This document shows, in pieces, positions 26,541 to 63,654 of a stretch of 64,000 nucleotides of DNA. The stretch is from Branchiostoma floridae (Eukaryota > Chordata > Leptocardii > Amphioxiformes > Branchiostomatidae): NCBI RefSeq assembly GCF_000003815.2, contig NC_049996.1, positions 9,326,715 through 9,390,714 on the forward strand. Direction: 5' to 3'. The translations under genes and the position numbers were made by a program. Under the pieces are notes generated by a model, which did no database searches, was not told the DNA's origin, and was given only the letters and a program-made list of their open reading frames with translations. Position 1 is the stretch's first letter. Every line of letters begins with the position of its first letter.

Positions 26541-26970
26541 CTGCAGAAAATCCCGTTTTGGATTCTTTATGATCTGATCATACGAAGAAATCCCTAAAAA
26601 ACGACTTCGCATCCGCGGCAAATGCCGCATTGGGATTTCTTAGGATCCGACCATGCCAAATATACGAGGAAAATCCTATAAAAACGACTTCGCATCCACA
26701 GCAAATTCCGTATTGGGATTCTTTAGGATCCGACCATGACAAATATACGAGGAAAATCCTATAAAAACGACTTCGCATCCGCGGCAAAGGCCGTTTTGGG
26801 ACCCGTTCATTCCAGGTATTCGAAGAAATCCTTTGAAAAACGACTTCGCATCCGAGGGAAATACCGTTTGGGGATTCTTTGCGATCCGATCATTCCAGGT
26901 ATTCGAAGAAATCCCTAAAAAAACGACTTCGCATCCGTGGAAAATCCCATTTTGGGATATGTTTGAGTCT
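26541..26970. repeat. Minisatellite, ~83-bp unit
   Basis: The core ACGACTTCGCATCCG starts at 26601, 26684, 26767, 26840 and 26923 (spacings 83, 83, 73, 83). Each is followed by a GGGATTC..T...GATCCGA block and then CGARGAAATCC. A partial unit begins the array near 26541, and the pattern decays past 26970 into GGATCCC/GGATAT-rich sequence up to about 27100. Confidence 0.8.
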
Positions 26971-27100
26971 TTTCATTCCGGATCCCAAAAATCCAAATTT
27001 CGGATATTTTAGGGATCCAACTCGAATCCGTTTGCATTCGCTAGCATTTGTTACAAATACGCAAATATCCCTGCTCGGATATGGCTACATCCGACACCCT

Positions 27101-38275: not shown

Positions 38276-38880
38276 GAAATGAAAGTGACACTTTAAGATT
38301 GTACAACTGTTCAGTGTAATACAGCAAACTGTTTGATATTCCACGTTCCTTCCTGGCGGCAGGTAGAGGAAGTGTGGGTTATTACATCCCCCTTTTAATT
38401 ATCAAGATATTCCACTTGTCTAAGCGCCAAAAGTTGCCTCTCTACCTTTATAACGAAATGAAAGAGACACTTTAAGATTGTGCAACTGAACTGTTCAGTG
38501 TAATATATCAATGCCCATACTCTTTACAGTTGCCTCTCTACCTTTATAACGAAATGAAAGAGATGCCGAGACTTTAAGATTGTACAACTGTTCAGTGTAA
38601 TACAGCAAACTGTTTTATATTCCACGTTCCTTCCTGGCGGCAGGTAGAGGAAGTGTACAGGGATGCCGAGACTTTAAGATTGTGCAACTGAACTGTTCAG
38701 TATAATATAGCAAACTGTTTTATATTCCACGTTCCTTCCTGGCGGCAGGTAGAGGAAGTGTACAGGGATGCCGAGACTTTAAGATTGTGCAACTGAACTG
38801 TTCAGTATAATATAGCAAACTGCTTTGTATTCCGTGTTCCTTCCTGGCGGCAGGTAGAGGAAGTGTACAGGGATGCCGAG
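38276..38880. repeat. Tandem repeat array, 105-bp unit
   Basis: Clean 105-base units start at 38661 and 38766, with a partial unit at 38871. Each begins GGATGCCGAGAC and contains ACTTTAAGATTGTGCAACTG, TTCAGTATAATATAGCAAAC and TTCCTTCCTGGCGGCAGGTA. More diverged units start near 38276, 38455 (truncated) and 38551, with an ACGAAATGAAAG head. Confidence 0.85.
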
Positions 38881-40507
38881 ACGCGATGATTACATCGTGA
38901 GGAGGGAACCTGACAGGACATCCGTCATAGCACCACTGTGCCGGGAGAATAAATTGCCTGCCTGAAGTTACAATGTACATTTTGTATCTACCAATTTTCA
39001 CATAAACCGTGTGGACTTTGAAATGTACCGATACGTTTTGACTATTTATTTTTTTATTTATCAATCTTGTAGGGGTGTCCCTAGTTTTCGAGAAACTGAT
39101 TTCCAAGGGAGCCTTTCAACCAGGTAAATATGAATAATCGAACATGATATGAGCAATAACGTATATGATTAACTCAAAATAAAATAAGTTAAACCTAGAC
39201 TACAACTTGCTATGACACCCAAGATTAAAAACAGTATCTTGTCTTTGTTGAAGAATCTAAATTTAAGTATTTAGAGAAAAACTCAATAAAAAATATTCAG
39301 AAGATGAACAGAATGACGAACTTCAAGATGTCAAATTTTGCAGCTTTGTAAAGGAAAATGATTTACTCATTGGCGTCTAATTGGTATTTTAAAAAATGGA
39401 AAATATATGATATATGTAGGTTTTGAGATCTTCATAAATGCAATGATGTTCGCACGTCAAAGAGGTTTGTTAGTTTGCAAAGATGTGTACACATCAAAGA
39501 GTCGAATCTTGCATATGTGGTTACTCTCATTCTGTACGCTCTATTAGATGTTTATAATGCACACATGGGACGCCATAGATCAAAGACTGCTCGTTAATTG
39601 AATCATACCTAAATGAATAGGGTGGCACCCGGTAATTTAGTATACACACAATACAACTCACAAAAACGTGTAATTTTTATGGACCTGCTGTAGTTCAGAG
39701 ATAGGCGAGGTAATGAACACAGTGTAAACCCCTGTTGGGCCAAAACGTGCAACTGTAGCTATTTGTTGAAAACGTACACCTCTGTCCAATGAGATTTGAA
39801 TAACATGAAAGAAGGGAACATTTATATTTTACGGACATTTGCTTGAAAAAGGCCGAGCATCTACATGACGAAACTGTCCTATTTTCATGATTATATGCTG
39901 TTGATTTACAGCATACTAACATTACCGCACATTGCCATTAGTCATACCATCACTACAGTTGGGTTTATACCTGTTCGTTAATTATTAAATTCAATATGCA
40001 ATATTTGTCTTATTTGAATCCGTAACCCCAGGAAGTCTAAAAACCTAAACGTTTTTACCACAGAGCGCGCCGTTAACCTCATGAGGTATATCCAAGCTGC
40101 GATGGCCGGCAAGCATTGGTTTTGGGTCGTATATAACAGAAACAATTTTCTTATATGCATGTAAACGATTGATTGTAAAAATGCCTCGACGATTCTATTT
40201 TATAGGTGCTTCGGTCTTCTGTGGTATGTATTGTGAAAATTGCAGATAAACCAAAAAAGCACCATGTATGCGTAGTAATTTTATGACAAGGCTGCAACTA
40301 CTAAGTATACTGTGAAGGGCAAAACGGTATATGTTACGGCTTTTTCAAGTTTAAATCAACTAAATATGGTGCAGCATAAGTTGCCCACTACATACTATGC
40401 ACGCTGAGGGTCTAAAGCGTCATCTATCGAGTTTATCCGGCGTTGCATCTTTTAAAACGCTTTCAACTCGTCATGAGAGCAGAGGATAGAGTCAGTGTTA
40501 CTACTAC
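38881..40507. other. No supported gene
   Basis: AT-rich spacer. The 128-codon minus frame ending at 38720 runs through the repeat array and is a repeat translation. Confidence 0.4.
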
Positions 40508-59238: not shown

Positions 59239-62200
59239 CTAGACATATTACAAAAGCAGATCTTAATGCAATAATCCATCCTTAAATTCAAATCTTAATC
59301 GCTGCATTTCTTCCAGAGGGGAGGTAGGTAAATATCTATTAACATACAGTCCTTGCGAATTTCATACATACTGAATTTGAATTTTCTTCAATTTTCTACA
59401 TTTCTTATTACTTGAAATGACTTTATATTGAAATATGAAATATCTATTGACATACTGTCCTTGCGAATTTCATACTGAATGTGAATTTTCCTCAATTGTC
59501 TACATTTCTTATTACTTGAAATGACAGTATTACATCTACTGCGAATAAATCAGTTGTGAAAATGTAGGCCTACCTCGTCGTTGGTGAAACAGTAGATTAT
59601 GGACACGACCAGACCCTGTGAAGACATGATATACGATATGCGTAAAAATTCGTATGTGATTAGATATTTTTTCCATTAATCAAAAGTACAAATAGAAGGT
59701 TAAAAAAATAGTGACGCTGTATTTGTGTGATCATCGCAAAAATCATTATTTTATGTCGATGTAAAGTTTGTGCACCTGTGTTGACTGCAACAGTGCGTTG
59801 AAGATCTGAAAGATGTTCTCGCCAACACCGCCATCTTGCGGATCGACGAAGAACAGCAGGTTAGTCAGGCCCAGCAAAGGCAACAGCACGAACAGGGCCC
59901 GAAGAGCCTTCCTGTAGTCGCCATCAACAAAGACAAATTGCACTTCAGATTTAAGCATAGTGAGCAGTTGAAATGCAGAGTTGTACCAAGAACATGGTTA
60001 CTTTTACAGCACATGGGTATATCCGTGTCATACCAATTTGAAAAGGTCCAAATTAAAGGCCTCGTCACGTCGATGAAGGTTAGAAATCAAGGTAAAATTA
60101 AAGATACGCCAAACAGCAATTATTTAAGCAACTAGATGTGATTTTGGAAACAGTTTTAGATAATATACGTTATTCTAGAGTTAGTTTTATTAGGCTAAAG
60201 AAGGCGCTTGCTATTTTGGTTTAACATTGGACCCTTTAATGTTACCTGCAATTAGCCCACGAGCAAGAATTTGCAATAAACTGATTTGCTATCTTTCGTC
60301 AGCTCTCTTACAATCTATCTTCAGTGTCAAGGACGATAGATAACGGGTGTTATCTGAAACGTCTGACCGTTTCCATAAACCATTTCCAGTTGCTTGAGTA
60401 ATTTGGCGTTAATTAAGGCCTAGTCGTTGCTATGAAGTCCTACTAACAATACTTACCCGTTGAAAATGAAATGAAATATTGATTCCAAAACGCATGTACT
60501 AACGCAAAACACCAGTAGAACATGAAAGTCCATCTGAGTCTTCAACTAAGGCGATGCTGATTTGATTATATGGATGACCTCGTCTAGAAAGCCGATGTGA
60601 ACGTGCGAATCAGAAAAGTTTGGCAAAGTGTATAGCATGAATGGGCAGGAAGGTTGAACAAATGACTGAACACACAGAGAATGGAATACGTTACAATAGA
60701 TTCTTCATTTTTGTACTTTCACACTTTCTTCTTAATTAGACCTTGGAATAGACTCTGGCATTGCATGACACTAGTATACTTATTTTGCAATGTACGGCAT
60801 GTATTTCATCAGTTTGCAGCTGCTTTGTACAATTTACAATATAGTTGAAAACTTTTCTTCTTAGAAACGGCCGATTTGCTTGGAGATAATGTAATGCAGA
60901 CAATCAAACAGTGGTGACCTCTCCAATAACTGACCTTATTCTCTCCATCTCTCCGGGTTTCTTGGGGACGGCAGCGGCCGCCATGTTGGACGTGCCGTCC
61001 TTCAGGTCCAGTTTGAAGCCCAGGGTCAGCTCGTGCCATGGCTCCGTGGCGTGGGGGGTCTTCTGGTCATCCTTAATCTTCGTTACCAGGACGGCCAAGA
61101 TGTGGAACAGGAAGTACAGGTTGACCTATAGGGGGAGGTGGGGTGGGGGGTCGTTGTAAATACAATCATGTCTGTTATGTTATGTTATTTAAAAAATTAC
61201 CTTCATGGAAAATGGTTGTATAGTTTTGGGCTCCGTGTGTCAGTACATGCATGCGTTTCCATGGCAATAGCTTTGGATGGACTTTGATGATATTTGATAT
61301 GTGGGTAAGTGTTGTACAGCAAAGGTCAATGTTTTGTGTGGGCCCTCTGGTGGCAACTGCAGCACAAGTTCTGGTTTTTGTATCTTTTATCCTGGACATT
61401 CTATGGTGTTGTTAGTTTTTATAAATATAGTCAGGCACAGAAAATTTATCCCTTGTTAGGACAATTTGGCTATATGCCTTATTATGGGAATTTTTTATCT
61501 ATCTGTTAGGACCAAGAAAGCTAAGGAAATATCAACTAAGTCAATAGCTTGAAAATTTGTCTATCTTATCTTTTGGTCATTCACTGTTAAGTAAATCGTT
61601 TAGCCAATAAAAATGACAACAGCAAAGAGAGGCACTCTTAGGATCTAGCAATCAACATGATGTAATAAATTATGTTTGAATTACCAGAAGAGCACCGACG
61701 ATTGGTCCAGAGATGATCCACACGTACTTCAGGCGCCCATAGTGGTGCCAGCAAGGTTTGGTGTCGTAAACACTCATAACCACTGTCCACACCGCAACGA
61801 ACACCACCGGGGCACCTGAAACAATAGTTCCGTTAGGATCATTCTCAACTACTGAATAATTACACTATTGGATAATGCATTTATTAATTTATTTATTAGG
61901 AAATGTCAATGTGTATTCTATCCACAGATCGTAGACACTCATCATCACCGTCCAGACCACAACAAACACCACCGGGGCACCTGAAACAATAGTTCCGTTA
62001 GGATCATTCTCAACTACTGAATAATTACACTATTGGATAATGCATTTATTAATTTATTTATTAGGAAATGTCAATGTGTATTCTATCCACAGAACGTAGA
62101 CACTCATCACCACTGTCCACACCGCAACGAACACCACCGGGGCACCTGAAACAATAGTTCCGTTAGGATCATTCTCAACTACTGAATAATTACACTATTG

Positions 62201-63654
62201 GATAATGCATTTATTAATTTATTTATTAGGAAATGTCAACGTGTATTCTATCCACAGATCGTAGACACTCATCATCACCGTCCAGACCACAACAAACACC
62301 ACCGGGGCACCTGAAACAATATGTCCTTTAGGATCACTGTTAACTACTAAAAAAAAATAAAATGTTGGACAAGTATGTTCTATTCACAGATCGTACACAC
62401 TCATAAGTTCATAACCACCGTCCAGACCACAACGAACACCACCGGGGCACCTGAAACAATATGTCCTTACTAATAGAATCACTGTTAACTACTAAAAAAA
62501 TAGAATGTTGGACAAGTATGTTCTATCCACAGATCGTACACACTCATAACCACTGTCCATACCGCAACGAACACCATCGGGGCACCTGAAACAATATGTC
62601 CGTTAGGATCACTGTCGACATGTCAAGTACTACAAAGATAGAATGTTGGACAATGTATATTCTATCCACAGTTATATAACAGCACGATTACACTTTTGCC
62701 TTCGGGAGTAAGCTTCAACTCCGATGGGGGGTTTGTTTTTGGCCGAAGTATGTGTGTTTTTGTGTGTTTGCCCCTGCATGTACTAGTATATCTCAAGATA
62801 CTTTTGATCGATTTGTTTGAATGACCCTGTGGTATTGATGTCTGCCATACATGTAGTTCATGTTCAATGACATCAATTTGAAACACCTGGCGCAGCTTAA
62901 AACTTGTTGAGCATGAACTGTTATATTACCTTGTAGTCATGTCTACCGTGGATTAGCCTCTTCGCGGGGGCATACTATATGATGCTTTTTGCTGCCGGGG
63001 TGATCTTTCGCACCCGGTAGGAATTTTGCGCGGAGGAGTTTCAGCCAGTCGGATTTTAATTAGCCATCTAATCAATAACTCCTACCAGATGAAACTCCTC
63101 CGCACAAAATTTCTACCGGGTTCGAACGATTAATCCAGGGGCAGAAGTTACTATTAAAGGGTGATAAAACTATGGTTAAGACATTAAGAAATTTAGAAAA
63201 CTCCTTCTGTAATAACCTCAGATTTCTAAACTTAGGGCCGGGTTTTGTGGTAACAAAAATAGAAATGTGTACGTAAAACTATACAAAAATATTAATAGTC
63301 TCTTTACGTCTTATGTAGTTTGGCGTCTTCTATATCATACTTTTCGTTCCCGAAAGCTGCCCGGCCGGGCCTCGGTTTGGACGGTGACTATATCTGCATG
63401 AGACCTTCCATGTTCACGTTACATATCGTACTTAGGCATGGTAGGTACTGCTTACCCCAGCCGATCACATAAAAGACAGTGAGACTGGAGATGTGTCTCA
63501 TCACAGCCACCACACAGCGCACGTAGAGGAACAGCCCCTCAATCAGCATCCAGAAGATGTTCGTCAGGCTGAAGTACTGCAGCAGGACAACCAGGCCTCG
63601 GCACACTGCGGGCTGGGGAGGGCAGAGATCCGTAGTGTTCATGTGGCAAGACAC
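59068..63654 (-). CDS. Class B1 (secretin-family) GPCR, CRF/DH44-receptor-like, 3' part
   Basis: A G-protein-coupled plasma-membrane receptor for a peptide hormone. Six exons in the window (63654-63456, 61815-61685, 61125-60935, 59911-59776, 59615-59574, 59238-59068; 870 nt) join in phase to 289 residues plus stop. The hormone-binding domain, TM1 and TM2 lie beyond the right edge. Visible are ECL1; the TM3 Cys (AVCRG) and NIFWMLIEGLFLY; TM4 GWG; the ECL2 CW pair; TM5; TM6 LLPLLGLT; TM7 QGLVVSIIYCF then TNDEV; and a 56-residue tail. The VLLPLLG, LLFFVDP and YCF..NDEV stretches most resemble CRF/diuretic-hormone-44 receptors, but subfamily is not settled by eye. The third intracellular loop is unusually long, with roughly 35-40 extra residues. 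The intron before the TM4 exon holds five partial copies of that exon. Confidence 0.9.
59330..59530. repeat. Tandem duplication in the last GPCR intron
   Basis: AATATCTATT ... CCTTGCGAATTTCATAC ... TCTACATTTCTTATTACTTG occurs at 59331 and again at 59439 (unit about 108 bases), with small indels. Confidence 0.75.
59574..59615 (-). CDS. GPCR exon: 42-nt TM7 exon
   Basis: GLVVSIIYCFTNDE, flanked by TTCACAG and GAG|GTAGGC. A 42-base TM7 exon is a hallmark of class B GPCR genes and strengthens the family call. Confidence 0.93.
59776..59911 (-). CDS. GPCR exon: TM6, ECL3, TM7 start
   Basis: Acceptor CGACTACAG, donor ACACAG|GTGCAC; reads KALRALFVLLPLLGLTNLLF and ends STQ. Confidence 0.93.
60935..61125 (-). 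CDS. GPCR exon: TM5 end and long ICL3
   Basis: Acceptor CCTATAG, donor ATAAG|GTCAGT; 63 codons. After VTKIKDD, where class B receptors normally pass quickly to RKA...TLVLLPLLG, it has a long hydrophilic insert including LKDGTSNMAAAAVPKKPGEM. Confidence 0.88.
61685..61815 (-). CDS. GPCR exon: TM4, ECL2, TM5 start (the functional copy)
   Basis: Acceptor GTTTCAG, donor CTTCTG|GTAATT; completes the Gly of GWG and reads APVVFVAVW ... KPCWHH ... ISGPIVGALL. Only this copy of the repeated acceptor region continues through ECL2 to a donor. Confidence 0.92.
61767..62680 (-). repeat. Tandem array of partial GPCR exons (acceptor plus TM4 start), six copies
   Basis: GGCACCTGAAAC (reverse of the acceptor and first codons) occurs at 61811, 61976, 62141, 62306, 62446 and 62581, spacings 165, 165, 165, 140 and 135. 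Each copy carries GTTTCAG and the first ~45 coding bases of the TM4 exon, then diverges into unit-specific AT-rich sequence. Copies 1 and 3 share one variant and copies 2 and 4 another, so a 330-base dimer duplicated. The intronic parts of the three 165-base units are nearly identical. Confidence 0.92.
62992..63144. mobile_element. Foldback (MITE-like) element in a GPCR intron
   Basis: CTGCCGGGGTGATCTTTCGC and GGTTCGAACGATTAATCCAG...GGCAG are inverted. Inner arms ACCCGGTAGGAATTTTGCGC / ACAAAATTTCTACCGGGT and GGAGGAGTTTCA / TGAAACTCCTCC pair closely, giving arms of about 52 bases. Confidence 0.85.
63222..63388. mobile_element. MITE-like foldback, copy 5
   Basis: The right end is intact (CCGGCCGGGCCTCGGTTTGG after TTTTCGTTCCCGAAAGCTGC). 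The left end is truncated or decayed (CTAAACTTAGGGCCGGGTTT). It is in the GPCR intron just downstream of the TM3 exon. Confidence 0.65.
63456..63654 (-). CDS. GPCR exon: ECL1, TM3, start of TM4
   Basis: Acceptor GATTTTAG, donor TGGG|GTAAGC. Contains the glycosylation sequon NTT, the conserved Cys at the top of TM3, the TM3 Glu of the class B core (LIEGLFLY) and VIGW. Confidence 0.9.

Follow-up and report, generated by a model that had tools for sequence, protein, structure and literature searches.

The window analyzed here is a 64,000-nucleotide stretch of the Branchiostoma floridae genome (RefSeq assembly GCF_000003815.2, contig NC_049996.1, positions 9,326,715 to 9,390,714 of the forward strand). 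On its minus strand it carries part of a receptor gene in which the 3′ end of one intron, together with the start of the exon encoding transmembrane segment 4 (TM4), is repeated in tandem. When joined, the products of the TM3, TM4, and TM5 exons match the 7tm_2 profile with an E value of 2.2e-29, and among the best 60 of 92 matches to solved structures, the secretin, calcitonin, PACAP, and VIP receptors rank first. Upstream of the TM3 exon and outside the window, stretches can be recognized by eye that resemble TM1, TM2, and a hormone-binding domain. Judging from its sequence, we take the host gene to be a class B1 G protein-coupled receptor (GPCR). The array-bearing intron (63455-61816, 1,640 bp) begins at the TM3 exon, whose donor GGG/GTAAGC at 63455 scores 4.8 bits (the slash marks the splice boundary) and whose 5′ end at 63612 was placed by eye from a CCCCAG. 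It ends at the true TM4 exon, which is entered in phase 1, closes with the donor CTG/GTAATT at 61684 (2.0 bits), and exits in phase 0 into a TM5 exon starting near 61125. These and all other splice scores derive from generic base frequencies with no species-specific training. The last intron of the same gene holds a separate 104-bp repeat (1.9 copies, 59330-59525) that by eye is purely intronic.

The array spans 62671-61766 and consists of six tandem copies of a unit that joins 79 to 112 bp of intron 3′ end to 53 bp of exon start (61 bp in D2). We refer to the five extra copies as decoys D1 to D5 and to the last as the true copy, E (Table 1). Their acceptors are spaced 135, 140, 165, 165, and 165 bp apart, and Tandem Repeats Finder (TRF) reports a period of 165 (score 1030, 61764-62348) and an overlapping period of 135 (score 529, 62246-62671), compared with scores of ≤47 in 200 dinucleotide shuffles of 61600-62760. 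A search of the host region against its own 513-Mb assembly returned one match. The acceptor core, TATTGTTTCAG/GTGCCCCG, is identical in 6/6 copies. Only the last copy continues into a full exon, and all five extra copies reach a stop: D1, D3, D4, and D5 pass from YD (YV in D4) into LWIE... and then a stop, with D3 to D5 ending WIEYTLTFPNK-stop, while an 8-bp insertion in D2 shifts the frame toward ...TVVMNL-stop. A sequence-only reading of this DNA had described much of this arrangement, and reading the letters again bears out its class B GPCR assignment, its six copies with a single full exon, the exact acceptor positions, and its account of four foreign tails plus one earlier stop. Its figure of about 45 coding bases per copy was too low (the exonic stretch is ∼50 to 53 bp), and its claim that all five decoys keep both the acceptor and the frame through TM4 is right for the acceptor and wrong for the frame of D2.

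Table 1. Features of the array-bearing part of the host receptor gene, in order of transcription
Feature	Positions	Strand	First coding base after acceptor	Remarks
Upstream exon, TM3 to TM4 start (...VFYVIGW G/)	63456..63612	-		Called from sequence and 7tm_2 match
Decoy D1	62533..62671	-	62585	Alpha intron part 62671-62586; exon fragment 62585-62533
Best conceivable tail-donor cassette, D1 acceptor to 62470 donor	62471..62585	-	62585	115 nt, in-frame stop; target for an RNA test, no called exon
Decoy D2	62390..62532	-	62450	Alpha intron part 62532-62451; exon fragment 62450-62390 with 8-bp insertion, early stop
Decoy D3	62258..62389	-	62310	Alpha intron part 62389-62311; type A exon fragment 62310-62258
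Decoy D4	62093..62257	-	62145	Beta intron part 62257-62146; type B exon fragment 62145-62093
Decoy D5	61928..62092	-	61980	Beta intron part 62092-61981; type A exon fragment 61980-61928, identical to that of D3
Intron 3′ end before true exon (beta)	61816..61927	-		Same 112 bp as in D5
True TM4 exon (E)	61685..61815	-	61815	131 nt; boundaries inferred from sequence and frame

Arrays of this kind have been described in lancelets. In excerpts of a study of amphioxus globin genes (PMC3087553), mirages are tandem duplications of an intron 3′ end plus the 5′ part of the exon in BflGb6, where units of 150 to 160 bp with 81 to 100% identity number six and three in two haplotypes. The same excerpts report an exon 3′ boundary duplicated at 157 bp in BflGb9 and cite earlier cases in Adh3 (Canestro et al. 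2002), and PMC3902484 adds a mirage in PGBD5 and cites TnC. The receptor array resembles these published cases, as excerpted, in its minisatellite-size units crossing an intron/exon boundary (in all six units), its retained splice signal (6/6 AG acceptor cores), its partial homogenization, and its Branchiostoma genome. It differs from them in its class B1 GPCR host, its alpha and beta subfamilies, its two exon types, its 330-bp partial dimer, and a further array elsewhere in the host gene, on the donor side of an exon. We consider it very probable that the array is a passive mirage of the TM4 boundary of a B. floridae class B1 GPCR gene, ignored by splicing. Passive duplication was one of the options raised by the sequence-only reading, and it fits this interpretation; the same reading called the array unusual, which is hard to maintain for a described lancelet repeat class with several more members in our small survey. 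Among literature titles and abstract openings, we found neither a genome-wide mirage count nor a mirage in a class B receptor.

The units are a mosaic of intron and exon types that do not travel together. Two types of intron part are present, alpha in D1 to D3 and beta in D4, D5, and E. Between the types, 15 to 16 of 77 to 78 aligned positions differ and there is a 34-bp indel, whereas beta parts differ from one another at 0 to 1 of 112 positions. With the outer units excluded, the intron parts are thus homogenized, and the exon fragments depart from this pattern. Type A fragments (D3 and D5) are identical, type B comprises D4 and the true exon, with D1 close to it, and D2 looks like a mixture. 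D5 and E differ at 0/112 intron but 7/50 exon positions (Fisher p = 0.0002), and D4 and D5 at 1/112 and 6/53 (p = 0.005), whereas D4 and E show no such contrast (1/112 and 2/50, p = 0.23), all of these p values being post hoc. The units seem to have been broken up by exchange. Gene conversion from a paralog was tried as a source of the type A fragments and rejected: the closest paralog found encodes GMPAVFVAAWTVVMYLFD where type A encodes GAPVVFVVVWTVMMSVYD, a single comparison. At an offset of 330, 212 of 215 bases are identical, compared with 158/165 and 159/165 at an offset of 165 within the array, so the 330-base higher-order repeat proposed earlier is real, although it extends over only about 1.65 copies.

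This divergence also bears on whether the array could be an assembly error or a false expansion. Minisatellites are hard to assemble, one BflGb6 haplotype was apparently misassembled in the draft genome (excerpt of PMC3087553), and the number of units here could be off. However, the units differ by up to ∼20% and carry distinct indels, which stutter does not create, and arrays of the same design occur independently elsewhere in the genome, making a wholesale artifact highly improbable.

Changes among the exon fragments carry the mark of a constrained source. Before the joint with the tails, 7 of 11 unique changes are silent where ∼27% would be expected (p = 0.010 to 0.014, with one double change counted as two). 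The nonsilent remainder comprises one Ala/Val change and otherwise Val/Met (one single and one double change), which corrects the earlier description of the changes as mostly silent or Ala/Val. On the simplest reading, the exon is under purifying selection, and the fragments would have been copied from it at various times. Units that each record a past state of a constrained exon should show such a silent bias, which is no proof of selection on the decoys themselves, because D2 carries a frame-shifting insertion.

Under the passive-mirage interpretation, the array would have originated when a boundary-straddling segment, the intron 3′ end with ∼50 bp of the TM4 exon, was duplicated in tandem. 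Slippage, conversion between units, or unequal exchange may then have enlarged the array and partly homogenized it. The beta units near the true exon, including the 330-bp dimer, would be recent copies, with the outer alpha units left behind and each decoy fragment preserving a state of the selected exon.

That all six acceptors are intact invites a different interpretation, in which use of a decoy would produce a stop after TM4, leading to message decay or a truncated receptor, with copy number tuning the output. The polymerase meets the decoys first, the 112 bp before the D4 and D5 acceptors match those of the true site apart from a single position in D4, and every decoy frame closes with a stop, all of which would suit such a poison-exon device. 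What such a device appears to lack is a clean cassette: among the best 30 of 234 GTs, decoy tails contribute just TTA/GTAAGG at 62470, which scores -0.1 bits versus 2.0 for the true donor. In addition, a branch-point-like TCCTAAC found 18 nt before the acceptors of D1, D4, D5, and the true site is lost in D2 and changed to TCCTAAA in D3, and the closest paralog shows no array. Published arrays in globin, Adh3, TnC, and PGBD5 are reported or suggested to be harmless to splicing (PMC3087553, PMC3902484); in the former, Adh3 data and globin reverse transcription-PCR suggest that regular splicing is undisturbed, with cryptic use still possible. A poison-exon role is therefore unlikely on the sequence features considered here, and we would assign it a very small probability. 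Most likely, the TM3 exon would be joined to the last acceptor (61815) through exon definition, because only that copy precedes the exon's own donor. A decoy used without a donor of its own would instead extend the exon through the remaining array until it met a stop.

Several observations weigh against the view that splicing simply ignores the array. The true acceptor ranks only 26th of 179 AGs on the generic score table. GCG/GTGTGG inside the D4 exon fragment scores 2.4 bits, as does the same site in the true exon; GCG/GTATGG inside D1 scores 2.0 bits; and the CAG/GTGCCC that opens the exon part of each unit scores 1.1 bits. The GT inside the D3 and D5 fragments scores 1.2 bits. Given these GTs inside the exon fragments, scores alone do not decide splice choice. 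The sequence before the D4 and D5 acceptors is nearly that of the true site and TCCTAAC is kept in D1, D4, and D5, so nothing local bars decoy use, and normal splicing here is something we infer. Two further uses of these GTs were rejected. The internal GTs of D4 and D1 were not counted as tail donors, as each would cut the exon behind its own acceptor to 23 nt, and the decoy acceptors were not accepted as recursive-splice sites (CAG/GT), the score of CAG/GTGCCC falling below that of the true exon donor.

The weak donor at 62470 also bears on whether a decoy fragment is becoming a real exon, a course proposed for globin mirages (excerpt of PMC3087553). Following D1, it delimits an interval of 115 nt that could be taken for a nascent exon. 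However, this interval contains an in-frame stop and its length is not a multiple of 3, the other notable GTs lie inside exon fragments or at the first exon base of a unit, and no readable coding exon results; ongoing intron or exon gain is thus scarcely credible at this locus. Intron gain by tandem duplication with proto-splice sites, as in potato RdRp (excerpt of PMC4974935), is similar in that a duplication may copy a splice site. Unlike that case, the receptor copies sit inside an existing intron, their tails have no good donors, and neither a new intron nor a new exon can be seen.

Returning to the passive-mirage interpretation, we surveyed 47 loci chosen by homology rather than at random, namely, the focal locus (L001), 37 other class B loci, and 9 globin loci, the last included because published mirages sit there. 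Each probe was the matched exon ±150 bp (E ≤ 1e-3, up to 6 repeats per locus); L053 to L072 were probed by self-BLAST rather than TRF, and in 10 loci (L034 to L043) little sequence precedes the exon and mainly one edge is visible. TRF was also run on 23 further loci, mostly long open frames, which stand outside the survey count. Boundary-spanning copies were found at the focal locus, at 2 of the 37 other class B loci (L055 and L072), and at 2 of the 9 globin loci (L048 and L052). A 22-bp repeat at L037 is internal to an exon, crosses no boundary, and was not counted.

The host gene itself provides another case. Its TM1 exon (L002, 1868-2126, 1.2 to 1.4 kb past the window end) is accompanied by four donors CTTCCG/GTGAG on the minus strand, at 65411, 65310, 65209, and 65153 in window coordinates (spacing 101, 101, and 56 bp); as far as its sequence goes, this array is a donor-side mirage. 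In a related class B receptor, L072, 14 donors (1 true and 13 decoys, 70 to 77 bp apart, 1405-2329) lie at the intron corresponding to that of the focal array, the TM3 exon product being identical to that of the host at 36/50 positions. On the acceptor side, L055 carries one duplicate of the TM3 acceptor and exon start (∼1021 and 1185, ∼162 to 164 bp apart). In L041, the closest paralog found (35/45 identical), a 619-bp intron leads to one TM4 acceptor only and no array is present, so this intron does not carry the array in every paralog. Because the arrays of paralogs differ at the same intron, turnover is favored over a conserved device.

Both globin cases resemble published types, as excerpted from PMC3087553, and fit the assignment of the genome to B. 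floridae. L052 carries a 158-bp array of 4.2 copies with four acceptors, three of them decoys and the last leading into the true exon, as in the BflGb6 type, and in L048 the 3′ boundary of an exon has been duplicated once, with the 157-bp offset seen in the BflGb9 type. L048 and L047 lie head-to-head, 42 kb apart, which matches the draft layout of BflGb5 and BflGb9 (head-to-head, 40 kbp apart). Weighing against the species match, the published trace data contradict that order, indicating head-to-tail. Moreover, our genome globin search returned 9 matches, one of them on contig C18, whereas the excerpts list 15 genes and place BflGb6 8 Mbp from BflGb12 on a single scaffold. By this survey, receptor cases included, mirages would not be rare in the lancelet genome.

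The class itself was already known and has been little followed, and the focal array adds a clear, well-resolved case to it. It raises the questions of how splicing picks out the true site when the decoys are nearly identical and of whether boundary-spanning arrays feed intron gain. More speculatively, some transcripts may use decoy acceptors, since these are intact and D4 and D5 all but reproduce the true site over 112 bp. Array length, which is probably haplotype-variable and perhaps cell-variable, could then act as a heritable dial of receptor dose, and arrays that arose independently at one intron position in related receptors, acceptor-side in the focal gene and donor-side in L072, could mean that lancelet splice junctions are preferred for tandem duplication. 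We give this combined proposal only a slim chance of being correct.

Elsewhere in the window, a second candidate acceptor-side mirage lies on the plus strand at 38363-38890, with GGCGGCAG/GTAGAGGAAGTG at 38363, 38644, 38749, and 38854. The copy at 38854 reads VEEVYRDAETR-stop, with an AATAAA soon after, and would correspond to the exon; the 25 longest plus-strand open reading frames include nothing nameable as its host gene. An 83-bp tandem repeat of 4.7 copies occupies 26580-26979. Finally, stretches on the plus strand between 54676 and 57390 (SNETVNIWSHLLP...) resemble what we take to be a progestin/adipoQ-receptor gene.

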